Shown here: positions 1,584 to 59,541 of the stretch, piece after piece | How the letters are laid out: each line of letters starts with the position of its first letter | Position numbering within the stretch: the stretch's first letter is position 1 | Assembly (NCBI GenBank): GCA_037447655.1 | Contig: JBBHKE010002856.1 | Location: 193,584-257,583, forward strand | Reading direction: 5' to 3' | Length of the DNA: 64,000 nucleotides | DNA from: Zygnema cylindricum | Taxonomy: Eukaryota > Streptophyta > Zygnematophyceae > Zygnematales > Zygnemataceae | Translations under genes and position numbers: made by a program | The notes under the pieces: generated by a model | What the model saw: the letters and a program-made list of their open reading frames with translations, nothing else | Told to the model about the DNA's origin: nothing | Databases searched by the model: none

Positions 1584-4500
1584 AACAATCTGAGTCTTTG
1601 CAAATTACAGATGGAATCTGGAAGAGGTCCCGTCAATTCATTACCAGACAACCATCTACAAGAAGAAAAAAAGAAATAAAAGAAATCTAAATAGTTAACT
1701 TTCTCAATGATTTTACCTTTGAAAAATAAAAATATGATAGAACCTTTTTTTTTTAATTTTGTATTGGAGTAGACATGTATCTCAAATGAAACAACGCAGT
1801 CAAATTCATTTCATGTTCTTGTTGATATAACAACAATACCAAAAAAACATTATATGAAACAAATTAGAATGTTACTCTGAAAATCCATTCGATAATCTAT
1901 TTTATTAGGAGAATTAGATCACAAAAAAACTAAAATAAAACAATCGGCAATTTATTTGAATTCTCGTTTAATATCAATATTAATCCCCAAATACATATTT
2001 AATTGCAAAAAAATATGACTCATATATATATGCATTCAGAAATTTATCAAATAGAACTTATTTACTACAGCAAACAGAAACAGAAATTAATCTAAAAGAA
2101 CCAAGGCAAAAACTAATAAAAATATCCAAACCTTCACAAAATTTTATCGTACTAGATTTGTAAAGGAATCGCGAAAAACTAAACCTTACACTTGCTACAC
2201 CATAAAACAAAAAAACAGTAAAGGTACAGAAAAGGATACCAAAAATATAAAAAGAGAGTGTGCGAAAATAATGAAAATAACACGGCATCAAATAACCAAG
2301 AGGAAGGCATATTACATAGATTTCTAAAGGTAACATACATAAATCTCTTTCACTTTCTTCAAAACTTCACTCACAACTCTTCCAGTCCTGTGAGGTAGCC
2401 AATCTCCGGAGCGATTTCGCCACTCAATCCAGCAGCGTCAAGGTAACTGTTCCCACATCCCGTGAACCATTGATATACCTCCCTCTATCCCTCTTCCTCC
2501 CTCTAACTCTCACTCCCCCCCTTCCTCTTCCTTCCCCTCTACGTTCCTCTCTTGTACTCAATCTCTGTACATCTCCCTCTCCCTCTTCGATCTCTCTCTC
2601 CCTCTTTACTTCCCTCTCCCTCTCTACCTCTCCCTCTCTCTCCCTCCGCCTTTCCCCCTCCCTCGCCCTCCGCCTTTCCCCCTCCCTCGCCCTCCACCTC
2701 CCCTTTACCTCTCCCTTCCCATCTTCCTCCCCCACCCCCTTTACCTCTCCCTCCCATTTTCCCACTGCCTTTCCCTCTCCCACTGTCTGTCTCTCTCCAT
2801 CTCCCACTCTCCCCCCCCCTCTCTCCATCTCTTCCTCTCCCACTCTCTCTCCCACTACATCTACCATCCTCGCCACTCTCCCTTTCCCTCACTCACATGT
2901 AAGTCGATCTCCCTCTCCCTCTCCCTCTCCCTCCCTTTCCTTCACTCATATGCAGGTCACTCTACCTCTCCCTCTCCCTCTGCCTCACCCTCCCTTCCCC
3001 TCAAACAGATGTAGGTCACTCTCCCTCGCCCTCGACCTCTCCCTCTTCCTCTCCCTCTCCATCTCGCTCGCCCTCTCATTTTCCGCTCTCGGTCCCTTTC
3101 CTCTCCCTTACCATCTCCCTCTTCCTCTCCTCTCCTTCTCCCTCTCCCTTTCCATCTCCCTCCCTTTCCCTCAATCACATATCGGTCACTCTCTTTCTCC
3201 CTCTTCCTCTCCCTCCCTTTCCATCACTCACATGTAGATCACTTTCCCTCTCCCTCTCCCTCTCCCTCTCCCTCTCCCTTCCGTTCCCACATCCCATGGA
3301 CTGTTGAATCTCTTCTGCTCCCTCGCTCATTGCTCTCGATCTTTCTTTCTCCCACTCTCCATCCCTCTCCCTCTATCTTCCCTTTCATTAGCCCCTCTTC
3401 CTCTAGCTCGCCTTCATCGTCACTCCCACTACTCCTACCACTCTGGCATTCTCTCAACGTCAATCTATCATCCCTCCTCACTATTTCTCCCTCCCCCCCT
3501 CTCCCTCCCCCTCTCCCACCCACTCTCCCTCTCCCTCTCCCTCTCCCTCCCCCTCCCCCTCCCCCTCCCCCTCCCTCTCCCCCTCCCCCTCTCCCTCCTT
3601 TCCCTCTCCCACCCCCTTACACTCCCTCTCCCTCCCCCTACCCCTCCCCCTATATATCTCGCCCTCCCTCTCATCTCTCCCTCTTCATCTCCCTCTCCAT
3701 CTGCCTCTCCCTCTCCAATCTTCTTCTTCCTCTCCCTCTCTATCACCCTCTCCCTCTCCCGATGTCTGTCCCTTTCCATCTCCCCATTACTTCCCTCTCT
3801 CCCTCTCCCGTTCCCGCTAACTTTCTCCTAGTCGCACTATCTATCTCCTTGCCGCTATTCCTCTCCCTCTTCCTCTCCCTTTTCCTCTCCCTCTTCCTCT
3901 CCCTCTCTCCCTCGCCCTCTCTCTCGACCTTACTTCGCCTCCCTTTCCATCTCCCTTGACCTATCGCTCTCCCTCTCCCACTCTTCCTCTCCCTCTCCCA
4001 CTTTTCCTCTCCCCCTTTGCCACTCCCTCTCTCTCTCCCCCTATCATTCTCCCTCTCACTCTCCTCTCCCTCAAAACTCTTTAACCCTCTTCCACTCCGG
4101 CTCTATCTCCTACTCCCTCTCCCTTTCCCCTTGCCGCTCTCCCTCTCCGTCTCCCACTCCTGGCTCCTTCCGCTCCCTCTCTTTTTCCTCTTCCAGCTCT
4201 CCCTCTCCCTCTCCCACTCCTTCCTTTTCCTCTCCGTCTACTCCTTCCTCTCCCTCTCCTCCCCGCTTTATATCCCTCTCTCTCACTGTTCTCTGTATCA
4301 CATTCTCAATCTCCCTCTCTTTCACCCTCCCTCTCTCTCCCTCTCCCTCCCCCTCCCCCTCCCCTTCCCCCTCTCCCTCCTCTCCCTCTTCCTCTCCCTC
4401 CCACTCTTCCTCTCCCTTTCACTCCCATTCTCCCTCTTCCTCTCGCTCTCCTACTCCACCTCCCTCTCCCTCCCCCTCTCCCTCTCCCTCTCCCTCTCCT

Positions 4501-6281: not shown

Positions 6282-6327
<46 letters not shown>

Positions 6328-7130: not shown

Positions 7131-7199
7131 TCACTGTACGGTATATGGTTTCAAAACGACAAACTCGATTCTTTCGACAGAGAAACCTACATTTTATGA

Positions 7200-10794: not shown

Positions 10795-10838
10795 TTGACA
10801 CGCCAGGTTCTGTCAGGTCCGAGAACGATTATTCCAAG
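10795..10838 (+). repeat. CCAAT-module fragment cut by an hAT-like insertion
   Basis: CGCCAGGTTCTGTCAGGTCC and GAGAACGATTATTCCAAG match 6884-6920. The match stops exactly where the hAT-like terminus TAGTGTTGGG starts at 10839. Confidence 0.7.
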
Positions 10839-31675: not shown

Positions 31676-31679
31676 TACT

Positions 31680-37600: not shown

Positions 37601-40600
37601 GAGTGGCAAGGGGAAACGGGGAGGGAAAGGGAGATCGATCGGGAGAAGAAGAAGTACAGAGAGCTGGAAGGGAGAGGAGAGAGGATATGTTGCAACGAGG
37701 GAGAAGGTTAGAGAGTGGGAGAGGGAGAGAAGGAGCGGGACAGAGATCGTGGAGGGAGAGGTTAGTGAGAGGGAGAGGTTTAGGGAGAGGGAGAGAGGGA
37801 GAGGGAGAGGGAGAGGGAGTGGGAGGGAGACCGGGGAGGGAGAGAGAGAGGGAGGGACAGAGAGGGAGAGGGTGAGGGAGACGGAGAAGGAATGGATGAG
37901 CGAGAGGGAGAGGGAGAGGGAGTAGGAGAGTGGCAAGGGGAAAGAGAGACGGAAAGGGAGAGGGTGTGAGGGAGAAGGAGAGGAGATGGGAGACGGAGAG
38001 AGATAAGTTGAGAGGCAGAGGGATAGAGAGATGGGCGGGAGAGGAGAGGGAGATAGGCCGTGGGAGAGGGAGAGAGGGAGAGAGGGAATGGAGGAGGGAT
38101 AGGGAGAGGGAGAGGAAGGGTAAGAGGGAGAGGGAGAGGAAGATGGTGGGAGAGAGGGTGATAGGGAGGCGGAGAGTGAGAGGGAAAGGGAGAGGGAGTG
38201 GGGCAGAGAGGGGTTGGAGAGAGAGAGGGACAGAAATCGGGGAGTGAGAGAAGGGAAGTAATAGGAGAAAGGGAGGGAGAAAGAGAGGGAAAGGTAGAGG
38301 GAGATGGAGAGGGAGGTGGAGAGAAAGAGGGACAGGGAAACGGAGAGGGAGAGGGAAAGGGACAAAGAGCGGGGAGGGAAAGGACAAGAGAGATGGGGGA
38401 GAGGGAGCGGGAGAGGGAGAGGGAGAGGGGGAGGGGGAGGGGGAGAGAGAGAGGGAGAAGGAAAGCGAGAGGGAGAGGAGAGGAAGAGGGAGATTGAGCG
38501 GGGAGAGGAGGGAAAAGAAGAGGTTGACGGCTAGAGAAAGGAAGAGGGAGTTGGATCTGGAGAGGGAGAAGGAGACGGAGGAGAGGGAGAGGGAGATGGA
38601 GAGGAAGAGGGAGAATGAGTGGGAGAGGGAGTGGGAGTGGAAGTGGGGCAGTGCGAGAGAGGGAGCGGGAGACGGAGAGTGAGAGTGAGAGAGAGCGGGG
38701 GAGGGGAAGAGGGTGTGGTTGCCGAGAGATAGAGGGATTGAAAGCGGGGAGGGAGAGAAAGGAAGAAAGAGAAAGAGAAATGGAGGAAGACGGAGAGGGA
38801 AAGGTTGATGGAGAGGAAGAGGGAGGTGGAGTGGGAGAGAGAGAGGGAGAAGGAAAGGGAGAGGGAGAGGGAGAGGGAGAGGAGAAAAGAAGGAGAGACA
38901 GTGGGGAGTAGAGGGATAGGTATAGAGGGAATAGAAGAAGTTAACAAAGAGGGAAAGGAAGAGGGATTGGGAAATTGAAAGGGAGAGTAAGACGGAGGAG
39001 TGGGAGAGGGACAGTTAGAGGGAGAGCAAGGGGGTGAGGAAGAGGGAGAGGGAAGTGAGAGGGAGAGAGAGAGGTAGTGGGGGGGGGGATGGAGATGGAG
39101 AGAGAGAGAAAGAGGGGAAAGGGAGAGTGATAGGAAAAGGGAGATGGGGAGGGATAAGGAGCAAGAGAGCGCCAAGAGGAAAACGAGAGGGAGGGGGAGA
39201 GGGCGTGGGAGAGGAAGAGGGACAAAGAGCGGGATGGGAAAATGGGGGGTTAGGGAGGGAGAGGGAGGAGGACAGAGGTGAAATAGAAACAGAGAGCGGT
39301 GTGGGTGAGGAAAGTGAAAGGGAGACGGAGATGGAGCAGAAGATGAATATGGACCGACAGCCGGGAGGAAGAAGACGTGGGAGAGGAAGCGGGACCGAGA
39401 GCGGGGAGGGAGAGGACAGGGAGAGGGAGTGGGACAAGGAGATCGAGATGGAGAGGGAGATAGAGAGGTAAAGGGAGAGTGAGAGGGAGAGAGAGAGGGA
39501 AAGGGAGAGTGAGATGGCCAGGGCGAGGGAGAGGGAGAGGGAAAAGGATATGAAGAGGGAGATTAGAGAGAAGAGAGCGAAATAGGGCGTGGAGGGAGAG
39601 GAAGAAGGACAGAGAGTGAAAAGAATAGAGTTACGGAGCGGGAAATGAAGAGGGAGAGGTGGGAGTGGGAGAGAGATAGGGAGAGCGGAAAGAGAGGTGA
39701 CAGGGAGAAGAAGAGTGTGAAGGAGAGGGAGAAGTAGAGCGTCAAGAGGAAAAGGAGAGGGAGAGATAAAGGGAATGGGAGAGTAGTGGGACAAAGAGGG
39801 GGGAGGGAAAGGAGAGGGATAGGGAGAGGTGGAGGGAGAGGGTGAGGGAGATGTTGAGGCGAAGGGGGAGGGGCAGGGGGAGGAGGCTGAGAGGGAGGGA
39901 GAGGGAGAGGGAGAGGGAGAGTTAGAGAGGAAGATGGAGAGGGGGGAGCGATGGGAGAGGGAGAGGGAGGGGGAGATGGAGATGTGGAGGGAGAGGAAGA
40001 GACAGAGCTAGAAGGAGAATAAAACGGAGAGAGGGGAGAGAGGGGAGGGGAGGGAGAGGTATAGGTAGAGGGAGAGGTAGAGGGAGAGGGAGAGTGAGAG
40101 GTAGATGGTGAGGGAGAGGGAGAGGGAGTGGTAGAGAGAGTGGTAGAGGGTGAGGGGGAGAAATAGGGGGGGGAAAGAATGAGGGAGATGGAGACGAGGG
40201 GGGGGAGAGGTTGAGGAAGAGAGATTGAGAGGGAGAGCTAGAATTTGAGGAAGAAATGAAGAACGTGACGTAGCGGGAAAGGAAGTTGGAAAGAGAGAGA
40301 GAGGAGAGGGAGAGGGAGAGGGTGAGGGAGAGGGTGAGGGAAGGGAGAGGGAGAGGGATAAGGAGAGGTAGTGGGAGAGGGATTGCGAGAGGGGGATGGA
40401 TAGGGATAGGGGAGGGATATGGGGAGGAAGAGGGAAAGTGAGAGGGAATGGGAGAGTGATAAGGATAGGGACAGGGGGAAGGGAAGAGGTTGAGGGAGAG
40501 GGAAAGGAAGAGGGAGAGAAAGTTATAGAGAAGGGGATGGAGAGGGAGAGGGAGAGGGTTAGGGTGAGGGAGAGAGGGAGAGGGAGAAAGAGAGGGGGAG

Positions 40601-43600
40601 AGGGATAGGTAGCGGGAGTGGGAGCGAGAGGAAGTGGAGGGAGAGGGGGAGGGAGGGAGAGGAAGGGGGGGAGGCACAGGGTGAGGGACAGGGAGAGGGA
40701 GATGGAGAGGGAGAGGGAGAGGGGAAGATGGATGGTGATGGGGTGAGGGAGAGAGAGGGAGAGGCAGAGGATGAGGGATAGGAAGAGGGAGACGGAGAAT
40801 GAGAGGGAGAGGGAAAGGGAGAGGAGGAGAGAGCGGGGTTGGAGATGGAGACGGACAAAGCGGAGTAGGACAGGTAGATGGACAGAGAGGAAGAAAGAGA
40901 GGTAAACGGAGAGGGAAAGCGAAAGGGAGTCGGAGAGGGAGAGTGAGAGGGAGGTGTAGAAGGATAGGTATATGGAAAGGTAGAGGAAAAGGGAGAGGGA
41001 GTGGGAGAGGGACATAGAACGGGAAGGGAGAGGGGAGGGAGAGAGTGAGAGAGAGGGGGAGAGGGAGCGGGAGAGGGGAGGGAGAGGGAGAGGGAGAGTG
41101 AGGAGGGGAGGGAGAGGGAGAGGCAGAGGGTGAAGGATAGGGTGACGGAGAGGGAGAGGGGGAGGGGGAGAGGGAGAGGGAGGGGGGGAGGGAGAAAAAG
41201 AGGGAGAGGCAGAGGATGAGAGATAGGGAGAGGGAGACGGAGAGTGAATGGGAGAGGAAGAGGGAGAGGAGGGAATAGCGGGGTTGGAGATGGAGATTGA
41301 CAATTCGGAGCAGGAGAGGTAGAGGGGCAGAGAGGCAAAAAGAGAGGGAGACAGAGAGGGAAAGGGAAAGGGAAAGGGAAAGGGAGAGGGAGTTAGAGTA
41401 GGAGAGGGATAGGGAAAGGTAGAGGAAAAGGGAGAGGGTGAGGTAGAGGGACATAGAACGGGTAGGAAGAGGAGAGGGGGAGGGTGAGAGTGAAAGGGAG
41501 AGGGATCGGGAGGTGGGAGAGGGGGAGGTGGAGTGGGAGAGGGAGCGGGAGAGGGAAAGGGAGGGGGAGAAGGAGAGGGAGAGGGAGGGATAGGGGGAGA
41601 TTGAGGGTGGTTGAGAGGGAGAGGAAGAGGGGGAGGGAGAGGGAGTGGGAGAGGTGGAGGAAGAGGGAGAGGGGGAAAGGGGGGGGGGGGTAGTGGGAGA
41701 GGGGGAGGGAGAGGGCGAGGGAGAGGTAGAGGGGTCGGCGGAGAGTGAGAGGGAGAGAGAGGGAGATTGCGAGGGAGGTATATAGAGGCTAAGATAGTGG
41801 GAGAGAGATAGGAGGAGAATAGGAGAGATAGTAGGCGGGAAAAGAAAGAGAGAGAGAGGGAAAGAGGCAACGGGATAAGGAAGATTGAGAAAGTGGGCTA
41901 GGTAGAGAGATATTGAGATGGTGAGGGAGAGAGAGAGGGAGAGGTAGAGGGGGAGGGAGCTGGAGAGAGAGGGGTAGAGCGTCAAGGGGAAAGGGAGAGT
42001 CAGTGGGCGATCGAGGGAGGAAAGAAATATGCTAGAGAGAGGGAGATGGCTTGTGGGAGTGGGACTGAGAACGGGGAGGGAGAGGAGATAGAGCAGGAGA
42101 GGGAGAGGACAAGGGAGGGGGGGATGGAGATTGGCAAGTGGAAAGGGAGAGTGAGAGGGAGAGGGATTGGGACTGGGAGAGGGAGAGGGAGAGGGAGAGG
42201 GACAGGGAGAGGGAGAGAGAGAGGGACAAAGAGCTGGGTGGGCGAGGAATGGAAAGGGGAGAGGGACATTGGGATGGAGAGATAGAGGGAGGTGTATAGG
42301 GATGGGAGAGATCGAGGCTGATAGTGTGGGAGATAGATAGGAGTAGAGGGAAATGCGAGAGAGATGGAGAGGGGTGAGTGAGAGGGAAAGACAGATGGAG
42401 ATTGTGAGGGAAATAGAAGAGACATGGGGAGAGAAAGAGAGAGAGAGAATAGTGAAAGGGTGAGAGCAAGATTGAGAGACATACAGCTGATAAAGGTGGA
42501 GAAAACTGTTATTCAACGGTTCATGGGATATGGGAACAGTTACCTTGACACTTATGGATTGAGTGGTGATATCGCTCCAGAAATCGGCAACCTCACTGAA
42601 TTGACTGATTTGTGAGTGAATTCTGAAAGAAAGAGAGAGAGATAGAGATCTTTTCAATGTACCTTTCTTTTGTCTATGTAACTAGGTGTTATTTTCATAA
42701 ATCTCGCTCTCTCTTTATGCATATTTGGTATCCTATTCTTTATCTTTACTATTTTTTTGTGTTATGGTTTAGAAAATGTAAGATTTAGTGTTTGCGATTC
42801 TTAAACAAATTTTGACGATAAAAAAATGTTAAGGTTCGGAGAATTTTATGAGTTTTTGTGTTGTTTCTATTAAGTTGTTCGCTATTTTTGTTTGTTGTAG
42901 TAAAGAAGTTACATCGATTGAATTTCATTTACATACATCCGTCATATTGTTTTGTAATCAAATATCGTAAAGAAATATGTATTTGGTAAATATTGATATC
43001 GAAACGGAAAAAAAAAAGGAATGACAATTGCTGATTTTTTTGAATCAATTTTATCGCTAAAATCGATTTTCAAAGGAATTTTCAAAGTAACATCTCAATT
43101 TCTTGGTATTGATGTCTTATCAACAAAAACATGAAATGAATTAGACCCAAAACAAAATCATAAAGAAAAAGGTTCTCACCTTCTTTCATTTTTTAATGAC
43201 AGAAACATCGAAAAAGTTAAATATTTAGGTTTTTCTTTTGTTTTTCTTCTCTTCTCTGTAGATGGTTGTCTCGCAATGAACTGACGGGGCCGCTTCCAGA
43301 TTCCATCTGTAGATTGGCAAGCCTCAGAATGTTGTAAGTCCTCTCCTTTTCTCTTTCTCTCCCACACTCTCTTTCTTTTTCTCTCAGTCATTTTTTTTTG
43401 TACATAACCGAAGGAATGAATAAAAACAAAACCAAAGATATGCACACAAATAGTACCCAAAATCGAGAATATAATGTTGGTTTCACTCTTAAGATCGAGC
43501 ATATTCTGATTTCGAGGATATTTCAGCTCTTGAAGTATGATTCGATTTCGGGTATGGATGTTGACATCGTGATACCTTTTGTTCGTTGATTTGTTTTTTC

Positions 43601-46600: not shown

Positions 46601-49600
46601 TAAACTGTGATTCATTACATATGATTATTGCCATTGCGGAGGCGAGAATACATCATTTCCATCAAGTAGAACTTGAAACAACATTCTTGGATGGTGAATT
46701 GGAAAAAGAAGTCTACATGAAGGTATAGAGTGCGTGACGCCTTCAAAAATCCCTCTATAGATTAAAGCAGGCGCCACAAACGTGGTGCCTTCGTTTTTAT
46801 AAAGTGCCCACGAAGTTAAGTTTTGTACGAAAGGCTCTAGACTTTGGCGTCTATATGAAAGACAAAGGTGTGAACTAAATAATATTTTTGGTGCACATTG
46901 ATGACTTCATAATGACCTCTAAGGCTTTAACAGCTTAGGTAAGATATGCAAATTGAAGGATTATATGCGATTTCATTTTAAGGTAACCGCCCTTGAAGCA
47001 CTTTGTTACATTTTTGGGATTGAAACGATTCGTCAAAAGAACGGTGATACCAATCTAAGTTAAGCGCAATACTGTTGCGTAGTCTTATCCAGGTTCTCTA
47101 TGGTTAACAATAAATTAGTGTCGTCGCCTTTGAATTCAGAAGCTACCTATTTGGAAATTTGAAGTCGAACCGATTGTTGGAGTCCCATATCAAAAAGCGA
47201 TTCAGATTATTTTATACGAAAGTGTTAATACGCGGCCCGATGTGTTGACGGTTGTCTTTGCGGTGAGTAGATACTGTCGGTCGCTTGAAAAGGCACATGG
47301 CTTTTCTTTTTTGCCATGCTTGTAGTTTTTCAGTTTTGGCCATGCCTCCTCTTTTGTACCCTTGGACTCTGATGGTTTCCCATCGCGCTTTTTAATTCAA
47401 TCTGGATTATATTGAAGCGGATATTCCTCTATTTGGTAAATACGACCAATATCAACCTTGTTTACAATTATAGATTGGAATCTTTAAACTCACCTGATAT
47501 TGCTATTTGAATTGGGGCGGGGAATTTGATACAAGAAAATCAACGTCTAGATATACTTTTGTCTTTGGTAGGGCGGGAATTTCGTAGAGCTCGTTTTCCT
47601 AACCAATCATCGCTCTCAGTTCAATCAAAGCGGAATACATGGCATGGTTGTCATGCATCCAAGGCTTCTTTTTCGATTAAGGAAATTTTTGGTGAGTTAA
47701 ATTTTCCGTTAGTTGTTTTACTATTTTTATGGACAGAATGAGTTTTATGGTTCTTGTGGAAAATCCCGTTTTTCACAAGTGCACGAAACATATTCATGTC
47801 CAGTGGCTTTGCATACAAGATCTGGTGACTTCGAAAGAAATCGAGTTTTGTTATGTGACCATTTTGAAAGAGGCTGCCAATATGCTGATAAAGGCAGCTG
47901 TACACGATTTACTTTTGGAAAGGCGACCTAAATTCGGGTCGTTATGAGTCTTCAACGATTCTCACGTTGAGAGAGGAATTGTTGGGTTTACCGTTGAGAA
48001 TAAGGCGTTCGCTTATTTAGCCGATATTTCGATTCGAGGAGTACGATTCGGTTTTGAGTATGTATATGTTGACGTCGCAGTATCTTTTGTTTGATAATTG
48101 TTGTTTCCGCTTTACTGCCGATTCATATCGGTTTGCTTGGAAACTATGGTATCTTAAGAAGGTAGCTTAGCAAGCCAAGCTATGGTCGACCCACTTATTT
48201 GTGCATCTGGTCATCTTTTGTAGCAGGTTTAGTTTTGTGTCGCTTTTGTTTTGTTTTGCACAATACAGTTTTTTCTCGGGCTTTATGGGATAAATGGAGT
48301 CAGTGAGGGAAATAAATCTCCTTTTTCGAAAAGCTTTGGCTATATATAGGACTTTGTTTTGTCCTTTGAAATTCTTGTACTTCCCCTGTTGTGAACCGTC
48401 TTTTTATCTATCCTATCATAAAATAACTCAAAAAACACCCGAGAGCACATATAAGTTATTCCTATAATAGTCATGCTACAAAGGCACATCCATGGCATAT
48501 GTTTTTCTCCACAATTCACTAATATTTCCAAAAAAAAATCCAATCATTTTCTTTAACACATTCGGATGAAAATTTGAAGTGTGAATCTACCTACAAATTA
48601 ATAAACTCTAACACAAAAATAATACATGTTGCTAATGCCTGAAACAAACTAAAGTACAAAAGGACACCCACTAAGTACGAACAGGAAATGACATGCGGAC
48701 CGAATTATTGATTAACCGTACGACATAAACGAAACGAAATGTACAAACTGAAAGCCAAACGTGCTTCGCAGTTCTCGACTGATGAAACAACGCTAATAAT
48801 GAACAGATTCAACAGGTTGCAATTCCGTACATTAACTTTTGTAGGTTTTCTGTTGTAGTGATTTTTTGACAATATAAGTGTATTATTTTGCAAAATTAAA
48901 TATTAAGTTTTAATGACGAATTCCAATGCAACTTCGTTTCATAAATTCCGAGCACCATATTGTATATAGATTTTACCAAATAGGACTAGTGTTTTTGTTT
49001 AGTTGTTTATATTATATTGTTAGTTTATAACTTGTACGGGCTTTTTATGGGGACGGGGTGGGGAGAGAGAATTTTACAGAGTGTTAGCCGCTAACAAGCT
49101 GAGTGGGACTGTTCCGAACTGCATCGGGAAGATGACCAGTCTTGAACAAATGTAAGTTTTTTTCTGGTTTTTTCTTTTATCATTTAATATTATTATGTTG
49201 TCGGTTTGTTGTTGTTGTTGTTTTTGCCTTTGTCGCTATTCTTATTGTTATTATTTGGTATAAATAATCATTATTTTTAATGTTGTCTGTATAGATATTT
49301 CTTTGTAACTTTTTTTGTCATTTTAACACTAATAGCCTTATTGGAACTTTATCAAAGATAATTAACAAATGAACATCTCTTTATCTTTTAATTCCCAAAC
49401 GCTAATTTGGTGTTTTGTTCTCTTTTTCCTATAAAGTTTTTCTATCTCAATTGTCACAAGTATCCTTAACAAAGGTAAAATTTCAACGGCAAAACCCTCC
49501 ATTTTAGCTTCCTCGTTTGTTTCCCCATTTTACACGATCTTTGCTCCTTTTGACGGTCTCTTTTTGGCATTTTCTATTATGTGTTTTATTCTTGTTTCTA

Positions 49601-52600
49601 CCTCTCATGGTCTCTCCCGCCATAAGCCAGTTAAAACTCGGCGGGATCTAACAGTTCTTAAATAGCCCTGGTTATCTACCCCACCTAAAATCCATATTTC
49701 TTATCCAAATTATGCATATAAGAGTTTGTTGAAAATATAATTAAATTTCTATTTTTAATTGGAGGAAGAAAAAAAAAAGGTTTGAAACGCAAATGGGAAA
49801 AGAATACGAAAAAAATAAAAAATGTGATGAAAAAGTACAAATGGGCAATAATTTATATTAAATCAGAAACTTATATTTTTTCCTGTAATTTCTGTACACA
49901 TACTTAGTGGAACTTGTAAAAGTGCTACATTTGCACTTCACCAGATCTGGACCTGAAACCTCATGATACACTTCTTTTTGTGCAAAAGGACGTTGGATGT
50001 GATCCACGTCAGCCTTCACTTTGCACACGTCATTCTGCACGTATTACTAATGGTCAATTAGTGAGCGTAAAACGTCACTCGGTACTTGTTGTGACTCGGT
50101 TTGACATATCTTTAAATCGCTCAATGCTCCCAGTAGCTTTTTCTCTGAATGACCGTTCTCAACCAACAAAGTTAATGTTTTGTTTGACTATCCAAGAAGG
50201 TTTAAAAGAAAAATTGCAAGAGTCAATTTTGTTAAAACCAGAATACAATTAGCATAGTGTAATACATTCAATGCTGTAGAGGAAAAACGGAGGCATTAGC
50301 AAAGATAAAGTTTTGTAAGTGACATAAGTAGACGTTGACAAGCTTGTAATGTTCTCTTTCTTGTTGCATTGCTTTAAGCTCATTTCGTTTTTCCTTTGCT
50401 TCTATTTCTATTCCTGGTTACCTTCGTGACTTGTGATTTCTATGAGCAGTGGTTATGAGTTTAGGGTTCAGGTATGGTTGAGTTTTGTGTTGAAGAAATC
50501 TAATTAATAGGAGTGATCTAGAGTCTTAGTACTATTGTAAACTACATACACAGTTTCATTACAATCAAAAATTGCTCCTGGCTTGGGTTTTGTAAACTAT
50601 TGACATTATACTGTACTTAAAATCAGCTTTTTTTGTCAAAGCCTTTTAAGTTGCGATATTCACTATTACACAGAAAAATAATTAGCCAAAATAAGCTTCG
50701 AAAAAATGCATTTTGCTCATTTTTTATTGATTTATGCTCCTCTAGAGTTGACGATCTCTCGTGAGCCATACATTGGTGAGTAGATATTTAAGTAAAAATA
50801 TTATTTTCCCATTGTTTCCGTTTCTCCAAAACTACTTGATTAAAAATGTTGTGAGAAATTCAATTTTTTGTTTGTTTTTAACAATATCCTGATTTTTCAA
50901 AAATATAGAATGGAAAGATATCGAAGTAAAATATACGATGATAAATAAAACACCTATATTTACACTTGGAAAAAAGTAAAATTTCAATCGGATGAAGATT
51001 CATGGGTGAAACATGTGTTCAAAAAATGGTCAAAATGGTGCCATAACCAGGCTATCTAGTGTTAACCACACTTTTTTTTTAAATTTTTAATTCATTTTTA
51101 TGCTACCCGCAGTTGTTGATTACATCACCTCTTTTGTCTTTTTGTTGTCCGTTTGTTTTCTTCAGTTCCACGATTCGTACTAAATACCTTAAAAACCCTT
51201 AAAGCTGTAAAAAAATTGAGAAATAAAACAGGAAACCACGGAGAAAAACCCTAAAAGAATATTTTCCTATAATTCGTGATTATTAAGAGTTTATTTGAGA
51301 GAGCTTGTAAATGTCAAGATTGACTTTTTTTCCCTTTGAATTCGTAAAAAATCATTGAAAACCACAAAAAATTCTAAACCTTTAGAGTTTTAGGTGTTTT
51401 TTGGCATATTATTTTCGGTTTTCTGTTTTGAAATTGTAAAATGTCTAAAAAAATGAAAACAAAACCGAAACATCCCATAATCTGGTAGACCTAAGATTTT
51501 TTAGGGTGTGACAAATGTCACAGATGGTTGTCGGATAACCAGTTCACGGGAAGTATTCCGCCGTCCATCAACGAAATTGTGGGTCTTATAAAATTGTAAG
51601 TTTTTTTTTATGACTTTTTTAGGCACTTTTTTTTTTTGGAATTTTCTCTTCTCACATTCTTGATGGTTTTATTTTTGCAAATTTCTTGGATTTTAAGTTT
51701 TCTTTTCTAAGGCTGCTGGGCGTGTTTTAAACATTTCTTATAGGGTTATGTGCTAGGATTCAACATTTATTTAAAGGCTTTTCTAGGAACCTTTTAGGGT
51801 TTTCAAGGATTTTAAAGATACCGGGGTTTTTTTAAGATTTTTATGTGAGATATTTTTACCACAATTAATGCTGAAAGTTTTCAAATGGTATTTTCTGAAG
51901 ATTAATATCCAGTGTTGACATTTGAAATGTAAGAAAAAATTTACACTTCAACAATTTTAAACTAGATCGTGTATGATTATTACGATTACTATTATTTCAA
52001 GAGGATTCGAATCCATGCTTGAAAAAGAAAAATAAAAGAAACGAAGAAGAAAAACCTAAAATGAAAAATTGTGGATGGTGGGCATTTGGGGAATTGGGAG
52101 GGGAGAGAGGACAGGGGTATAAATAACAACCGCTTGTCTGGAAGTATTCCAGAATTCGATCGATTAGTGAACGTCCGAGAAGTGTAAGTAAAATCCAATT
52201 CTATGGATTGTTGTTGCTGTTATTGTTGTAATTTTGATTTTTTTCATGGTCAGTTTATCGTATTTGAGTAAGAATAATAGTCAAATGGAAAATCCCATTT
52301 GCTTACTAACATCATAGCGATTTTCAATTTTTTTCTTTGTGATCGAAATATATATAAAAATTATGTATGCACTATAGTTTTGGAGGGAGATATTGATTGT
52401 ATTCATCAACACCATAGCTAGAAGTAAATTAATTGGATCGGTTCACTAGGCTTACGTCTTGCGCCTTTGAATATCTGTGTCTTTTTCACAAAAAAAAACC
52501 AAATTTGTGTTTATGGCAAAAAAATGATATTTCCCTCGTAACAAGCCGCAAAGTTATAATTTTTCACAGTTACCAATAAAAAATGGACAATCTGCGTGTG

Positions 52601-55600
52601 GACGAACATCTAGCCTACTGAAAAATTTGAATTTGGGTAGGCATAAAGTATAAGGAAAAAGTGACTCAACGCAAAATAATAGAACACATTAGTAAGAAAG
52701 TTGTAAAGCTTTCAATTTCCAAACAATAAAGACGAAAGCGTTTCTAGCTTTTGTTAAGTTCTACGGATTTGTTGTTAGCAGACTTGCAATAATCTGGTCC
52801 AACATCAATGTCCGAAAATATTTAATCCGCATTCTGCGGACGCAAATCTTCATTTCCCGTAGGACCCGTTAGAGAGCCAATGAGAACACATCGTTTCGCC
52901 AACATTATTGTATACAAATTCGCACGTGTGAGGATCAAGATCCTGACCGTCCACGAAACTCAAAGTTGGACGGCCATGAGATGTTGAAGTCATAAGTTAT
53001 TCTCCGATGGCGTGATAGCAAACCATTGACGGCAAGAATCTAATTTTTGCGGCGTTGGAACGCGTGTGGGGAATCAAATATTGTATTTTTCTCGTATTAA
53101 AAACAAATTTAATCAAAAAGGCGCAATTGGGTCGATTTCCAACCGAATTCATCCGATTTTTTATCCGAATGTCATTTTTAGCTATAGTGTCAAGAGAATA
53201 AAGTCATGGAGAGGTTAAAAAATAAAAAAAATAGTTGCGTTTAGTGTGAAGAAAGTGTTCAAAAGTACGACTTTGTGCGCTACCTATTTTTGCCGAGATG
53301 TTCGATTCGAGGCGATTTACAATACCTATGCCATCAACGTTATATTGGCGTTTCGAGTGACCCAATATTTGTTTAGGGCGATATTGAAATCAGGAGTATA
53401 GTACCAACTCGTGACAGACTGTCACATGTGACGATTTCCGACAGGATTTTCTTGGGACACAGAATGCTACCGAGCATTCCGATTGGACACATGTAAAAAA
53501 AACATACACCAAATGTTATTTCCTTATTGGACCAAACTCAACCAATCATTCTAAGCGTTTCAGCACAAATGCATGCGAAGGGGGATAAATGGGCTTGTAA
53601 AGCAAGCATTTAATTAAGGCTCTCACAACGAGCTTTCAGAAGATAACACTTTGTAAAGCTCTTAGCACAGTGAGAAACAAGGGTGTAGACTTCATTGAGA
53701 ACATCACATAATTACAAACAGTGTACAGTTAGATTAGGAAGATAGTGAAAGTCACCTTTAGACAGCTTAGGTTAGAGATTAAATTGTCATTTCAATTGTC
53801 ATTACTTCCTCGGGTTCAAATAGGCTTTCGCCTTGTGGGCGCTTGACTATAAAGTAACTACAAAATTGAGCAACAATGCCGATGCGATTCTACCCTCTCT
53901 TTACCTCTCTCAATTTATATTTCTAAACTTGTGATCTATCTAGTGTCTACACTATGACTACCCGTGCTAAGTCCTATCTGTCTGTGGCTTCGGGGGATTT
54001 CTCCAATCGCTCAGATGGTCGACCAAAGTTTCAGAAAGGGATGTGAGATTCTGCAAAAAATAACTTAGTACACACTTACGGAAATATCCTTCGTTATGTT
54101 ACACTCTGTGACACTAACGTTCGATTGAACGATTGAACAGTAGTAATGTAGTAATAATAATACAGGAAAACGTTGTAACTGACATCTACTTTTGGCACCA
54201 TACAAAAATATTACGTAACGGATTCACTGTTACGTTATTTTGGTCCACAAAAAGACGAAACCTATTTATGAATTTTAATTTTAGGACATGCCTACAAAAA
54301 TAAACATCATTTCCACCATGATGAAATTTAATTAAAATAATTGTCTATCCTGTAAATGTTTGGATGTGTATATTTACGTTGTCATCAAGTAAGGAATAAT
54401 TTTTCTAAAAGCAAAAATTATTCTATAATCTCTACGTGTGACTGAAAACATGCCCTAAATTTTTAGATAATTATATTTTCAAATGTTAAATGTTTCCCAA
54501 AAACTCGAAGCAAACATTTATTCAATATTATCCAAATATTCGAATCCATTCCTGACTTTTTGACACAACGTTTTGTATTTTCTCTAAAAAAAAAATCATA
54601 TTTTATTATGAAATAGAAGGCTGATTCGACTGCTAGTAAATATTTATTCAATATTATCCAAATATTCGAATCCATTCCTGACTTTTTGACACAACGATTT
54701 TTATTTTCTCTCAAAAGAAATAATATTTTATTCTAAAATAGAAGGCTGATTCGACTGCTAGTAAAAAACAGAGATGGAAAATTAAAAAGTTTGAAGTTGT
54801 GAATAGTGAAAGAAAAACCAATCATTTTTTTTTAACATTGATTTACTGATTTTTTTTTCCAGATATGAATGGAAAAATTGTAGCATATATTTTTTCATTT
54901 TTTTTTCTTTGTTTATTTCCCATTTTGTGGTCTCAATCATATATAGTAATTTTCGAAAATCAACTCCTTTTTCACTTATTACATCAAATATCTATGCTTT
55001 GGTTTTTTTTCTTCCAGATATTTATCTCAAAATCAGTTGACTGGAAGCATTACATCGTCCATCGGTCAAATGTATTCCCTTGAAACTTTGTAAGTCTAAA
55101 TTCCAAATCCTAAAAACCTAAAAACTAAAAGGGCCAGAATTCTAAAACCATAAAACCCTAGTACTCTCTAAAATCTTAAGACCCTGGAAGCCCTAAACCC
55201 CAAACCTTAAAAGAAGAGATTTCATAGAAAAAATAAACGATTCCACCGTTTTATACTGAGAAAGAATGGAAAATCTATTTTGGACGATTGGATTTTTCCT
55301 TTTTTGCCAAATACGAGTCATGAACATTTAACTCTGAAAAATAATGAGTTCGATGACTCTGACGAAACCTAAAAGCTGCCAAAATCGGCTATTAACGAAT
55401 TTTTGCTTACGAATACATGAGGGTGTTGTCTAGTTCTTAAAAAGTGGAGCTCCAATATCATGGAAATAGATTAGGAAGAGGGAGAGGAGATGACGGGAGA
55501 GATAAAGAAAAATAATGGAGGGAGACAACCGAAGATGGGGGGAGGGAGGGAGAAAGAGGAAAAATTCACGAAGGTAGGAGCGACAACGGAGAGAGAAGAG

Positions 55601-58600
55601 TGAAGATGGAGGGAGGGAGGGAGGGAAGACGAGGAGTTGGCAGAAGGTGTGAAGGAGCGACGGAGGGAAACGGGAGAGGAGATGAACGATGATAGAAAGA
55701 GAGATGTTGGAGGAGACAGAGAGTTGAAAGGAGGGAGTTGTTGGAGTGAGGGAATTGGATTTGTCGGAGGGAGGGAGAAACATGATGGTCGGAAGGAGGA
55801 AGGGAAAGAGGGAGGGAAAGAGGGAGGGAAAAAGGGACGGTAAAAGGGAGGGAGGGAGGAAGAGGGAAGTGAGATTTGCACATTTTTGTCTTAATAAGAA
55901 ATAGTTCTTAAATTCTATTACGATAAATCTGGTAATCATGCATCATCTTTAACAGGCTATCTTAAGTTGTTTATAAATTTAAACAATTACATCGATAGAA
56001 ATTTAGTAAAACACAGGCGTGCGTAAAAACGTAATAATATGACATATAATATAACTATAAGAACATAACTAAAAAGACAATACAAAATAAAACTATCATA
56101 ACATCCATTTTATTATGGAAATGGATTTCGGTGGGGGATTCGCAGATGGCTATATGATAATTTTTTGACTGGAAGTATCCCGTCATCTATTGGTCAACTG
56201 CCAAATTTTAAAAGCTTGTAAGTTTTTTTTTTCCTGTTAGAGATTTTATATTTTTGGTTCTAACTTTAAAAGAATAAATATCAATTGAGATTTAATTTTA
56301 GATCTAGAATTTGATCTCGGTTTGATTTTGATTTTGATTTTGATTTTCATTGTTTTATTCTTGTTTATATTCTTATTTTCATTTCCACGTTCATTTGATT
56401 TTGATTTTGGTTTCAGTTTTTTTGTTTTGTTTTGATTTTATTTCAGTTTCAATTTTTTTTCGATTGTCATTTTTAAATTTGATTTCGACTTTGAATTTGT
56501 TTTTTTTTATTTTTTATTTTGACGTACAAGTTCAGGTATTAGTTTTGGATTGGGATTGGTTTTGGTTTTAGCTTTCGTTTCGACTTTTATTTTGTATTTA
56601 TTATCATATCATATTCAATTTTATCCTCATCTCAATTTTCTTCTTCCTTTCAGATTTCATCTTTCATTCATAAACGGATTTTGGTTTTGATCTAATTTTA
56701 GGGTTTTTAGGGTTTTTTAGATAGCAAACCTTATTGTTTTTGTTTCTTCCGATTTTGATGTTAATATTAGTTTTTTGTTTTGATTTGCAATTTTGATTTC
56801 CGTTTGATTTGTGTTTCGGATATATATATATATACATATATATAGACATACATGTATACTAGGTTATCATTTTGTTTATGTAGGTTCGTGTGTTCTATTA
56901 CAACATTGTATGGTTTAGCATTTGGAAAAACCTCCAAAGATTGACAAACTATTGAAAAATTGCTAAATCCTATGATTTGGAAGGTAGGAGAGAACGCTCA
57001 TAATTAAAATGAAAACGTACTTTATTTACATATTTGCAACTGCAATTTCGAATGAACCATTTAAAAAAAAAAAATTGCAAAATCTGATAAATAAACATGT
57101 TCTATTGGTGATTCTAGTATAAAAAGCAAAATAGAGTAAGAGGATTGAATAGCTTTAGAAAAGTGAAAAACTATTGGAAATCTGAAAATACATGACAAAT
57201 CTTTGTATTATAACATATAATTTTATAAAATTGTACTTCATAAAACCCCGAAGAATTTGACGCACATAACAATTGAAAAAAAATAAAAATAGAGTAAAGA
57301 CTTTGACTGTTGATATTTATTTTGTGATCGTCAAAATCCACCTTTACTAATTTAAAAGGGGTTTGTATGGGGGGGAGGGAGCTGGTTTGGTGAATTCAAT
57401 AGATCTCTATTTCATAACTCATTAAGCGGAAAAATTCCAGCTTCCTTCGGTGATTTGGAGAACCTTCAACTCTGGTACAAATACATCTTTTGTTTTTTAG
57501 TTTTATGATGCAAAAACTAAATTTTTTCCTATACGATAACAATCATGTCCTGGAGTTTCGTTAATGTAAAAGGTAAAAAATGGTGTGTTAAAAAGTAACA
57601 TTTGTCTTTTTTTTTGTTTTCCTATTTTTTCCTTCATGATGTTACTTATTTTTGTATACTATTTCCTTTACACTGTAATAGCCCCTAGGGCTGTCGGGGG
57701 ATCGCACACCAGTTTGGGCGCATAAATATCCCTATATCCGCCCACCTATAAACCATTATCCCTAATTTAAACATTTTGTATTTTATGTCTTGGGAAAGCT
57801 CTTCTATGTACTAGTGTTGCAAGTGTCGCAAGAATAATTGGTTTTGTCGATATTCACTAAGTACTATCTGTAGGGGTCTATAAAATCGACATATCGATGC
57901 AATGTAACAACAACCGGTAATCGTGATATAACAACATGGATATTGGGATATCGACCATATCAACGTACAAATGGTACAATTATTATTTTCCGTATATGAA
58001 CAACATCCTATAAATTTTGGATCTAAAAACTTTGTGCATTCCATGCATCTAAAATATTGTAACTCAAAAAAAACGGCAGGTGACAATCGTTGATTATTGC
58101 TATATCAATGTCTACCTATTTAGCCACTAAATAACGTTTTTCCGACTTCTTGGTATTATGATAAATACCAAAATCTTAACACATCGACTTCGATTTTGAT
58201 CAGGACGCAAAAATACTATTTACCATGATAAATAGGTTGAACAAAAGGCTACTATTTAAACAAGAATTTAAAAATGATACAAAGGCCAAAACAAATGCAC
58301 TAAATGATTTTTATAAATTATAAATTACTTCTAAAAACAATAATCGGTACAGCTACGCAATTTTTTCCTTTATATTACAGGAAAATTTTAAATAAAATGT
58401 ATGTAGTATGATTTCTAAGTTTTTTATTAGTTTTGCATGACGAATATTGCAATTTCTTAGGCACGTGGATGATGGTTAAATATGCGGTAGAGTATGGTAA
58501 TACCATGCTCGAAGCCGCCCGAAATAAATGGGTACGGACCAGCCAGGCTCTACATCGAGTTTGTGGCACAATAGTTAGTGCGCTGACGCCTTAAGTCAAA

Positions 58601-59541
58601 GGTCCCACCTTCGAGTCCTGGCCGGCTCAATTTTCCCTAGTATGGGACATGCTAAATCCCGAAATTCACAGAAATCTAACACTTTTTACCGAAACAAGAC
58701 TTCCAATAGTGCCAAACACATGTCAAGTGCCACCGAGTATTGTCATTTATGAAAGACATAGAAATTCACGTTTGTGGCGTCGCATATAATATTTGGGGAT
58801 GTTTATTCTCAAAATATCTTCATCAAAATGTTGTATAAGAATCATAAATTTGTTGCTTTTTGAATGTTGTCTAATTAATAGTTAACGTATCAAAGCTCAA
58901 AAGCCTTGTTGTTTTTAACCATAGTAAATAAGGTTTCTCGATTATTATCAACTTGTATACCTTACAATTTTCATATTGCTAATGGAGAATAAATTGATAA
59001 TAAACTGATTTTAATTTTATAAAATAGACCATCTGTACAAATTGAAGGTGAGCATCTATTTTATGAATAACTTTAGTCTTAATATCAACTTAAAAATCGT
59101 TGCTGCTGCAAAACCAATGTTTGTACCTTGCTTAGATCAAATTCGTCAGGTTTCGATGTGTGACATAATTTTCTTGTGTTGCTTAACTTCTTACTGATCT
59201 TTTTGGTCTTTTTATCGTCATGATCTTGTGATTTCTCATCAAACTATCTCACACGGTCAGTAACTACATCAAATGGACAACCTCAATGTGAATTATTGGT
59301 AAAGAATTGTTTCAAATCCATAGATATACCATCCGGATGTCCTATTGAAAATCAACAAATTGGAAACGAATGTGAACAATTTTGCAATGCAATTGAAGAA
59401 AGAGGATCTTGTGGGGGAAATAAAACGTGTAAAACTTGTGTTAACAGGATGACATATACATGCAAATGTTATTACGGGTATCTCAATGACAAAGACGAGT
59501 ACACTTGTATCCGTACATCTATCTCACCTTTTTTTGCTTAA
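34428..59541 (+). CDS. LRR gene B: secreted/receptor-type leucine-rich repeat protein, up to 12 exons
   Basis: Exons are 34428-34527, 36165-36267, 42540-42611, 43262-43333, 49080-49151, 51524-51595, 52115-52183, 55018-55089, 56146-56217 and 57403-57474. All have AG/GT borders and join in one open frame. Exon 1 gives the signal peptide (MAAILTLLMAMAAVSPTRG). Exon 2 gives a cap with cysteines (ALEVISSRMQGFPPI, SISCSYQTSRVTY). Exons 3-10 give eight LRRs, for example LTGPLPDSICRLASLRML, FTGSIPPSINEIVGLIKL and LSGKIPASFGDLENLQL. All are 72 bp and phase 2 except exon 7, which is 69 bp. The 24-residue plant-type LRR forms a curved extracellular binding surface. Candidate exons 59028-59047 and 59261-59541 add an EGF-like end, but joining exon 10 (ending TG) to an exon starting with A gives TGA. 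There is no membrane segment or kinase. It may be a secreted decoy, a receptor fragment or a recent pseudogene. Confidence 0.8.
34528..36164 (+). repeat. intron 1 of gene B: polypyrimidine, with a TRIM-like insertion
   Basis: It runs from the GTAAGT donor to the TCCCTCCAG acceptor. It is a CT-rich low-complexity tract with (CT)n microsatellites (34540-34700) and CTCTCCTCTC runs (36055-36160). It is interrupted at 35448-35939 by an LTR-type element absent from gene A. The ORFs in it, rich in S, L and P, are artefacts. Confidence 0.85.
35448..35939 (+). mobile_element. TRIM-like miniature LTR retrotransposon, 492 bp, with tRNA-like promoter boxes in its LTRs
   Basis: Two direct repeats (35448-35671 and 35717-35939, 224 and 223 bp) begin TGT. 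They end CTAACA and CCAACA. Directly after the first comes TGGCATCGGAGCCAG, close to the plant primer-binding site complementary to initiator tRNA-Met. The core is only 45 bp. Each LTR contains TGGCACAGTGGTAGTGCG, like a Pol III A box; the second has an intact B box, GGTTCGAACCC, and the first a changed one (GGTTCTAACCT). CCTC abuts both ends, but in low-complexity sequence. An alternative reading is a pair of tRNA-derived SINEs. A single related unit lies at 58448-58681. Confidence 0.7.
36268..42539 (+). repeat. intron 2 of gene B: GGGAGA polypurine tract, 6.3 kb
   Basis: After the GTGAGT donor of exon 2 the coding strand is nearly all purine, (GGGAGA)n and variants, with short breaks only. 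One extra exon-2-tail module lies at 36385-36450 (TAGCGAGAGTGACCAACCT), homologous to the modules in gene A near 4640 and 4840. Tandem sub-repeats of 0.5-0.8 kb recur at 40300-41700. The opposite-strand ORFs of up to 911 codons are low-complexity S/L/P text without codon structure. The tract ends at GGGAACAG before exon 3. Confidence 0.9.
43475..43914 (+). mobile_element. 5' LTR of the gene B copia element
   Basis: It starts TGTTGGTTTCACTC and ends ATCCTATCGA where the 3' copy has CCTATCA. It aligns with 47980-48418 throughout, including CACTTATTTGTGCAT and GGCAGGTTTAG versus AGCAGGTTTAG. The many differences between the LTRs indicate an old insertion. Confidence 0.85.
43963..44589 (+). pseudogene. 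copia Gag N-terminal region
   Basis: Frames at 43963-44187 (ALPMDSWGDPPSPRNRLKEK, VSFGNFEEPLPLDPFNQD) and 44326-44589 (YDDYDLDEEDP, LYNGSNNATWRKFFKPQLVL, LRHLWEVVIGEEKLLDRD, WRVSKRKYFVAITSLM) form the start of a copia Gag. They are separated by a stop and frameshift. Gag would package the element RNA in virus-like particles. The gene A copy duplicates the first part. Confidence 0.75.
44590..46420 (+). pseudogene. copia middle region: degenerate Gag end, protease/integrase remnants
   Basis: Only weak traces are seen: LPNKSFHLKEVL (44920 on), text like YWCHKRSYVSITFPDKEK that could be a damaged zinc knuckle (45200-45260), and a glycine-rich stretch (GGGYGGCGDG). No catalytic protease or DDE motifs are readable. 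Confidence 0.45.
46430..47310 (+). pseudogene. copia reverse transcriptase remnant
   Basis: In order and across frames: DTKWVVKTIIGAFGE, VELETTFLDGELEKEVYMKV, LYRLKQAPQTW, IIFLVHIDDFIMTS (the YVDD box changed to HIDD), LEALCYIFGIETIRQKNG, VGVPYQKAIQIILYESVNTR and PDVLTVVFAVSRYCRSLEKA. These follow the copia RT pattern, but stops interrupt them and the catalytic box is altered, so the enzyme is dead. Confidence 0.85.
47980..48418 (+). mobile_element. 3' LTR of the gene B copia element
   Basis: It starts TGTTGGGTTTACCG after the purine tract GAGAGAGGAAT and ends TATCCTATCA. It pairs with the 5' LTR at 43475. Confidence 0.85.
48419..49079 (+). other. rest of intron 4 of gene B, AT-rich, no gene
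   Basis: Plain AT-rich intron sequence ending at the TTTTACAG acceptor before exon 5 (49080-49151). No repeat or ORF of note. Confidence 0.6.
49152..51523 (+). other. intron 5 of gene B, no assigned gene
   Basis: AT-rich, GTAAGT donor and GTCACAG acceptor. A 90-codon ORF at 49980-50252 (VVTRFDISLNRSMLPVAFSL, EGLKEKLQESILLKPEYN) is not recognised and may be chance or a transposon scrap. Confidence 0.55.
51596..52114 (+). other. intron 6 of gene B
   Basis: T-rich intron between the TTGTAAG donor and the GGACAG acceptor that precedes the only 69-bp LRR exon (52115-52183). Nothing else noted. Confidence 0.7.
52184..55017 (+). other. intron 7 of gene B, with a possible inserted block at 52600-54100
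   Basis: Most is AT-rich. The stretch 52600-54100 is less AT-rich and lacks introns or coding signals. It includes CTGTCACATGTGACG near 53418 and may be an unclassified insertion. The tandem duplication at 54516-54764 lies near the 3' end. Confidence 0.5.
54516..54764. repeat. 126-bp tandem duplication in intron 7
   Basis: Copies start at 54516 and 54642 (ATTTATTCAATATTATCC) and end with GATTCGACTGCTAGTAAA. They are nearly identical, so the duplication is recent compared with neighbouring repeats. The minus-strand ORF over it merely reads the repeat twice. Confidence 0.95.
55440..55870 (+). repeat. polypurine GGGAGGGA tract in intron 8
   Basis: This is a third purine-rich tract on the coding strand of the gene (GGGAGGGAGG, AAAGAGGGAGGG). 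It is shorter and less pure than intron 2 and lies between exons 8 and 9. Confidence 0.85.
56290..56850 (+). repeat. TTTGAT-rich and TA microsatellite stretch in intron 9
   Basis: Runs of TTTTGATTTTGATTTTGATT at 56320-56350 and related TTTGATTTT text extend to 56800, then TATATATATATA at 56820-56840. It is low complexity; its short ORFs are not genes. Confidence 0.8.
57812..58110. mobile_element. degenerate hAT-like element in intron 10
   Basis: It starts CTAGTGTTGCAAGTGTCGC and carries CGATATTCACTAAG, AAAATCGACATATCGATGC and GGGATATCGACC motifs like the subterminal blocks of the hAT family. Its right end is unclear. Confidence 0.4.
58448..58681 (+). mobile_element. solo LTR of the TRIM-like family, intron 10
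   Basis: It matches either LTR at 35448-35939: AAATAAATGGGTACGGACC, ACATCGAGTTTGTGGCAC, an A-box-like TGGCACAATAGTTAGTGCG, a B-box-like CTTCGAGTCC, TGGGACATGCTAAATCCC and the end AATCTAACA. It is more diverged than those two and no primer-binding site follows, so it is an old solo LTR (or a single SINE under the alternative reading). Confidence 0.7.
59028..59541 (+). CDS. candidate 3' exons of gene B: EGF-like cysteine-rich C-terminus
   Basis: Exon 59028-59047 (after AAAATAG, before GTGAGC) joins in phase 1 to exon 59261-59541 (after ACGGTCAG). Together they encode PSVQIEVTTSNGQPQCELL, then a segment with about ten cysteines ending TYTCKCYYGYLNDKDEYTC and a stop at 59541. The spacing C.C..GY.......C is that of the last part of an EGF-like domain. 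No transmembrane helix follows. It is placed at the end of gene B by position, strand and phase. The junction with exon 10 is faulty, so a missing exon or a separate gene is possible. Confidence 0.55.

Follow-up and report, generated by a model that had tools for sequence, protein, structure and literature searches.

In the LRR-ROCO family of brown algae, each leucine-rich repeat (LRR) is encoded by an exon of its own, 72 bp long and described as phase 2, and the family is proposed to vary its LRR exons, with variable residues within the repeat (PMC11378527, also for Zambounis et al. 2012). According to the same source, a 17-residue segment of the form LxxLxxLxxLxLxxNxL lies inside one exon (PMC11378527). 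The locus analysed here lies in a window, meaning the whole stretch of DNA under analysis, of 64 kb (G000:C2141:193584-257583, where G000 is the genome label) from a genome of 353 Mb. Compared with the brown-algal genes as described there, it likewise has one LRR per 72-bp phase-2 exon and variable repeat residues, but here the intron splits the LxxLxxLxLxxN segment between two exons, and unlike in the ROCO proteins the LRRs are followed by extracellular-type modules, with no ROC-COR found by Pfam in our model of a related copy (copy D, see below). Because ROC-COR was not found and the intron takes a different position in the repeat, we regard the similarity as a resemblance to brown-algal ROCO genes and not as membership of that family.

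The repeats are of the plant type, with 24 residues and an xIPxx motif, as in the LRR receptor-like proteins of land plants (PMC10834447). Unlike in plant LRR receptor-like kinases and lectin receptor kinases, the regions that we scanned, including those downstream of the EGF exon, contained no set of kinase motifs (none of HRDxK, GxGxxG or APE, and one lone DFG), Pfam recognised no kinase domain in the copy D model, and LRR, EGF, PAN, F5/8C and lectin modules would follow one another in a single chain. The legume lectin domain as such also occurs in the L-type lectin receptor kinases of land plants. An LRR-EGF-PAN-F5/8C-lectin architecture was not described in the literature covered by a limited search, which included the accessible parts of PMC11378527, PMC6362431, PMC6307271 and PMC10834447. 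We consider it likely that the two genes of the window, A and B, are paralogues in a smaller branch of a large LRR-EGF family, probably that of a zygnematophyte alga, that this branch comprises mosaic, apparently extracellular recognition proteins with exons in single-phase classes and diversity of germline origin, and that gene A is a recombinant and gene B a truncated copy.

Single-exon repeats in a divergent gene pair

LRR exons were sought by an acceptor-anchored frame scan of the window in which frames were scored and a strict threshold (a score of at least 10) as well as a looser one were used; the splice sites of all copies discussed here are predicted from DNA. The scan yielded ten LRR exons in two divergent genes, eight on the plus strand (gene B) and two on the minus strand (gene A) (Table 1). 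Nine of the ten measure 72 bp and one measures 69 bp, all are phase 2 and lie between AG and GT, and at each of them the intron follows the second base of a codon. An earlier note on this DNA had reported two 72-bp LRR exons in gene A, and in gene B seven more plus one of 69 bp, all of identical phase, and our scan confirmed this. Eight acceptor-anchored LRR frames in the window scored at least 10, while both first exons scored 8. Donor-like tetramers were found at 72 nt in seven of these eight frames and at 69 nt in one, with further single donor-like tetramers at 73 and 90 nt, and none of 20 simulated first-order Markov windows produced a 72-bp AG..GT frame with a score of at least 10. One non-LRR frame (13437, score 9) also cleared the looser threshold. 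Scans of the window for tRNAs and Rfam families gave no match.

Table 1. Features of genes A and B, given as positions within the 64-kb window
Feature	Position	Strand	Source
Gene A LRR exon 2, 72 bp, phase 2, WLSGNELTGPLPDSICNLQRLRL	1584..1655	-	exon scan
Gene A LRR exon 1 (N-terminal repeat), 72 bp	2375..2446	-	exon scan, alignment
(TCTCCC)n counterpart tract upstream of gene A	2572..4637		
Polypurine (AGGGAG)n tract, kilobase scale, just upstream of gene B	36444..42226	+	
Gene B LRR exon 1, 72 bp, exon start uncertain	42540..42611	+	exon scan, alignment
Gene B LRR exon 2, 72 bp, phase 2	43262..43333	+	exon scan
Gene B LRR exon 3, 72 bp, phase 2	49080..49151	+	exon scan
Gene B LRR exon 4, 72 bp, phase 2	51524..51595	+	exon scan
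Gene B LRR exon 5, 69 bp, phase 2	52115..52183	+	exon scan
Gene B LRR exon 6, 72 bp, phase 2	55018..55089	+	exon scan
Gene B LRR exon 7, 72 bp, phase 2	56146..56217	+	exon scan
Gene B LRR exon 8, 72 bp, phase 2; counterpart not found in copy D	57403..57474	+	exon scan
Gene B position of EGF-exon splice acceptor, TG (AG in copies A, C and D)	59227..59228	+	
Gene B EGF-like exon, read as it stands to TAA	59229..59541	+	

The first exons of the two genes and the DNA upstream of them match in inverted orientation (inverted repeats I1, I15 and I20, and alignment), as the same note had claimed. The putative acceptor of exon 1 (gggaacag) is preceded by purine-rich DNA, and the 14 bp directly upstream of the exon are the same in all eight aligned copies except for one base. 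This near-identity, together with the purine-rich flank, suggests that exon 1 may be longer.

A candidate mosaic protein and its relatives

Gene A is cut by the edge of the window and extends about 24 kb further left, to about C2141:170024. In this stretch we found LRR exons at C2141:188452, 185962, 182813, 181117 and 180402, as well as a 59-bp remnant of exon 5 at C2141:185000; in copies B, C, D and E this exon is 69 bp long. The LRRs are followed by EGF-like, proline-rich plus PAN, F5/8C and legume-lectin exons, the last of which ends at 170024, and PAN_1, PAN_4, F5_F8_type_C_2 and Lectin_legB pass the Pfam cut-off in these pieces. Related copies were found elsewhere in the genome: copies C and D lie tail-to-tail on contig C1607, copy E is cut by the end of contig C437, and further early exons are located on C656, C1340 and C2161.

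Copies A, C and D, which are the fuller ones, seem to code for a single mosaic protein, with seven to eight single-exon LRRs, an EGF-like exon, a proline-rich plus PAN module, F5/8C and a legume lectin. Exon phases chain from LRR through EGF, PAN and F5/8C to lectin in all three. Each LRR exon is in phase 2 at both of its ends. The EGF exon, preceded by tgttccag, starts in phase 2 and finishes in phase 1, with GTACG following it; the PAN and F5/8C exons are phase 1-1, and the lectin exon starts in phase 1 and runs to a stop. GT-AG, phase-matched junctions are present at EGF-PAN, PAN-F5/8C and F5/8C-lectin in each of the three copies. When copy D was joined in silico at GT-AG junctions, the model read 826 residues and then a stop, N-terminus not included; neither the N-terminus nor a signal peptide of the mosaic proteins was found. 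In this model LRR_1, PAN_1 and Lectin_legB (93.5 bits, cut-off 26.3) lie above the Pfam cut-off and F5_F8_type_C_2 and PAN_4 just below it, and the scan lists LRR, PAN, F5/8C, lectin, cEGF and nothing else. We use the term EGF-like on the cysteine pattern only, no EGF profile being above the cut-off (in copy A, cEGF reached 16.2 bits against 26.6, E 0.0097, and EGF_2 10.6 bits against 22.1, E 0.75).

We propose that the exons from LRR to lectin are joined in one transcript, in which the EGF-like exon would switch the phase from 2 to 1 between the LRRs and the C-terminal modules. The LRR arc, each repeat of which is one symmetric phase-2 exon, may bind a protein or peptide, and the PAN/F5-8C/lectin part may bind cell-wall or foreign carbohydrate, so that the product would be a receptor or an adhesin that is either secreted or bound to the wall.

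When the segment from PAN to lectin was compared with 5.8 billion proteins (E <= 0.01), five matches were obtained, namely three lectin-bearing proteins that are unnamed or hypothetical, one F5/8C protein from the catfish Silurus meridionalis and, as the weakest (E 6e-3), P0126 of Closterium sp. NIES-64 (Zygnematophyceae, Desmidiales). In a pairwise comparison with copy D, whose PAN, F5/8C and linkers were left out of the query, P0126 matched with E 3e-38 and 135 identical columns among 518 aligned (26%). It is the one named match with the order LRR-Cys-lectin, and resembles the mosaic model in carrying LRRs, an N-x-x-S-N-Y cap, a Cys module and a legume lectin in the same order. P0126 differs from the mosaic model in that its precomputed Pfam list includes neither PAN nor F5/8C, in that no complete EGF was seen by eye, and in having a further C-terminal stretch. 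The lectin exon alone gave one match, 55% identical and unnamed, in a search to which length limits apply. The LRR part was also tried as a query and set aside, as it matched 2943 LRR proteins and was not diagnostic. The genome also contains 27 matches to the GRAS family, against none in 14 control genomes; with GRAS genes generally regarded as confined to zygnematophytes and land plants, this and the similarity to P0126 fit an origin in one of these two groups.

Duplication, recombination and decay among the close copies

From exon 1 onward, gene B aligns with copies A, C, D and E in segments that are about 67-89% alike. Introns can be aligned between the copies as well, intron 3 being 81-92.5% alike over all ten pairs of A-E. 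In a comparison of the LRR exons of A-E that left out exon 5 of A and exon 8 of D, the nearest exon in another copy was at the same position for 35 of 35 exons, and mean identity was 0.87 at the same position versus 0.46 otherwise. Since exon identity and order are kept throughout and the introns align, we conclude that A-E arose by whole-gene duplication; neither gain nor reordering of LRR exons was found among these five close copies.

Exchange between copies is visible in gene A. Its similarity to D is 92-100% and to C 73-80% between the 5' end and about C2141:192501, whereas beyond about 192000 the figures are 89-95% for C and 76-90% for D (500-bp windows, blank where the alignment is sparse). 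At sites where C and D differ, gene A agrees with D at 663 and with C at 67 in the 5' block, and in the 3' block with D at 314 and with C at 1147. Judged from these alignments, gene A is a recombinant of a D-like block with exons 1-2 and a C-like block from exon 3 to the end, with the breakpoint in intron 2.

Loss and gain of exons were seen in copies D and C. LRR exon 8 is absent from copy D both by tblastn and by exon score, and its loss corresponds to a deletion, some 1.5 kb in size when D is compared with C, that keeps the reading frame. The suggestion in the earlier note that LRR exons can be separated without a frame change thus holds, as the exons are symmetric and the D model lacking exon 8 is still in frame to its stop. 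Copy C carries two PAN-F5/8C units, the first F5/8C having an in-frame TAG (C1607:442519), and the clearest gain among the copies is that of a PAN-F5/8C pair and not of an LRR exon.

Gene B is damaged, a truncated and probably non-functional copy. At the acceptor site of the EGF exon it has TG where copies A, C and D have AG. We considered the AG at 59262-59263 as the ancestral acceptor, as no other AG separates the conserved portion of the exon from the stop upstream of it, and rejected it because it is out of frame by one, which leaves the last exon of gene B without an in-frame acceptor. Within this exon, EGF consensus residues are altered or lost and there is one extra Cys compared with A, C and D; FXa_inhibition is its sole match in Pfam (12.5 bits, cut-off 33.4). 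No PAN, F5/8C or lectin modules of gene B were found, all matches listed on the 783-kb contig C2141 belonging to gene A. In the LRR frame, a codon TGT, which would be translated as Cys, stands just before exon 1 in seven of the eight aligned copies, with TAT in gene B. Relative to sites common to A and C, gene B differs at 388 of 7321 up to intron 7 and at 263 of 1610 beyond it, so that its 3' part probably came from another source. With the 59-bp exon 5 in A, the acceptor and missing modules in B, the F5/8C stop in C and the lost exon 8 in D, each of the four copies that were read through carries a lesion, and together with in-match stops on contigs C1934 (PAN and lectin) and C1879 (EGF and lectin) these lesions suggest that decay could dominate.

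Between close copies, in pairs that are not independent of one another, dN/dS was 0.15-0.81 for LRR, 0.13-0.24 for lectin, 0.17-0.44 for EGF, 0.16-0.73 for PAN and 0.23-0.70 for F5/8C, at an intron 3 distance of 0.08-0.22. When LRR exons 2-4 and 6-8 were divided by residue class, values of 0.14 for framework residues, 0.43 for five residues taken as exposed and 1.02 for the others were obtained; repeat positions 3, 16, 18 and 19 differ in 28, 20, 20 and 25 of 45 comparisons, respectively. These values show past constraint together with a fast LRR part and do not prove positive selection, also at the solvent-exposed positions for which the earlier note had proposed the comparison.

LRR regions outside the close group were read for a few members. 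Five LRR exons, all of 72 bp, were found on C2011 between the first exon and the EGF exon, and C237 has seven of 72 bp plus one with a donor at 74, so that the number of LRR exons differs among members. A head-to-head pair at C1498:24788-41296 has five LRR exons found on one strand and one on the other, with identical last LRR peptide, EGF and lectin on both strands. On C1032, in 3.8 kb read, exon 8 has the 72-bp spacing, and within about 9 kb of two EGF loci in C2422 and of one in C2506 we found no LRR exon that has its two splice sites. Across 47 LRR exons, a comparison that excluded exon 5 of A (59 bp) and the C237 exon with a donor at 74, 42 are 72 bp and five are 69 bp long (exon 5 of B, C, D and E, and exon 1 of C). 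In C237 each of the seven exons compared, the eighth being left out, is most similar to one elsewhere in its own gene, which suggests exon duplication; in C1498 the within-gene lead is 0.02 or less over five exons, a near tie.

The strongest rival to our reading is that the locus has an ordinary history only, in which old tandem exon duplication was followed by whole-gene duplication and decay and the symmetry of the exons is irrelevant to present diversity. The conserved exon order and identity, the alignable introns and the lesions in each copy read through all fit this history, and we judge it to fall just short of probable. It accounts less well for the in-frame loss of exon 8 in D, for recombination within an intron of A, and for the differing numbers of LRR exons in C2011 and C237 and of PAN-F5/8C units, which range from none to two. 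Our preferred reading, in which diversity would build up from one generation to the next through duplication of genes, through conversion or unequal crossing-over in introns, and through decay, includes these events: as there is one phase common to the LRR exons and a different one common to the C-terminal modules, accidents of crossing-over or loss would leave the frame intact.

A large LRR-EGF family

A query with the EGF exon gave 150 scored matches from 448 first-look candidates, all those listed having E below 1e-16, so that the genome holds at least 150 related EGF exons; 12 of those listed are 72-100% alike. Listed matches to the other modules comprise 105 for lectin (some of them pieces of one exon), 60 for F5/8C and 39 for PAN. 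We paired all listed matches by strand, counting a module that lies within 13 kb downstream of an EGF exon. By this census 16 of the 150 listed EGF exons have a downstream PAN, F5/8C or lectin. The order EGF-PAN-F5/8C-lectin is kept at six loci, with the PAN-F5/8C pair present once in A, D, C1340 and C1032 and twice in copy C and C1934. Lectin alone follows EGF at seven loci (C2146, C1879, two in C1498, C771, C1311 and C1002), at C1002 6.2 kb away and with a lectin 37% alike, and among the listed matches C656, C1086 and C283 have PAN, alone or together with F5/8C, but lack lectin. The other 134 of 150 have no such module within 13 kb, which makes the mosaic a minority form and suggests that the majority of members may consist of LRRs and EGF alone or include different modules. 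The 7 kb downstream of the C237 EGF exon contain open frames in which no domain was recognised by eye. A 1952-residue open frame in C2586 proved to be an assembly gap of N and was rejected.

These 134 exons, and gene B with its LRRs and EGF and none of the rest, would also fit two adjacent genes, an LRR-EGF gene and a PAN-F5/8C-lectin gene. So would the tandem alternating PAN/F5/8C exons at C2131:277213-285936, C884:13192-18215 and C490:305539-308371, contigs on which no EGF match is listed. We consider such a pair unlikely, given the phase-matched junctions from EGF to lectin in three copies, the Closterium protein P0126 that joins LRR, Cys module and lectin, and the six other loci at which lectin follows EGF at a distance of 388-1510 bp. 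More improbable still is that the locus is organised to generate receptor variety by gain, loss and exchange of exons in the brown-algal manner, perhaps with alternative splicing or somatic change, an idea that has the symmetric exons, the large family, the exon exchange and loss seen and the variable repeat residues in its favour, and against it the lack of any gain or reordering of LRR exons among the five close copies, the broken gene B and dN/dS below 1 at residues taken as exposed and at framework residues.

The earlier note had linked the locus to a repertoire that varies by exon gain and loss. The part of this idea that stands draws on the missing exon 8 of D, the intronic recombination in A, the variable number of PAN-F5/8C units and the other LRR counts; the part that does not is gain or reordering of LRR exons in A-E. 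Its phrase 'built for repertoire variation' implies a purpose that we do not retain; what the DNA shows is ordinary germline recombination and decay, nothing seen pointing to somatic or programmed variation. Its main exhibit, gene B, is damaged.

Returning to paralogues in a mosaic branch of an LRR-EGF family, a wider version is possible, which we offer tentatively and with more doubt than confidence: an alga belonging to the group that is sister to land plants might possess a hundred to several hundred LRR-EGF genes in which each repeat is one symmetric exon and recombination runs through the introns. These genes would parallel, independently, the exon-shuffling receptors of brown algae, and some of them would at their other end also shuffle phase-1 exons for carbohydrate-binding modules. 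If working members are expressed, they would form a large pool of candidate proteins for recognition at the cell surface, apart from the receptor-kinase scheme of plants and in a lineage close to where land plants arose. With two phase classes in a single family, and with losses, exchanges and duplications visible against alignable introns, the genes allow a natural test of the idea that receptors diversify faster when exons are symmetric, and they provide a second, apparently independent case beside the brown-algal proposal.

Several observations concern the surroundings of the two genes. The (AGGGAG)n/(TCTCCC)n tracts are purine-rich on the sense strand of each gene, and purine-rich DNA lies just upstream in other aligned copies too; speculatively, such polypurine tracts upstream of both genes could favour triplex DNA and recombination. 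Between A and B there are inverted repeats at 10838-11324 and 23981-24455 (I3, I5 and I17), with arms 90-93% alike and about 12.7 kb apart, and an open frame at 18051-18671 on the minus strand, which by eye resembles a fragment of a Copia-type polyprotein. Also between the genes, at 31996-32732 and 33321-33863, lie two arrays of a 16-bp satellite unit, AGTACAGCGAACATAT.
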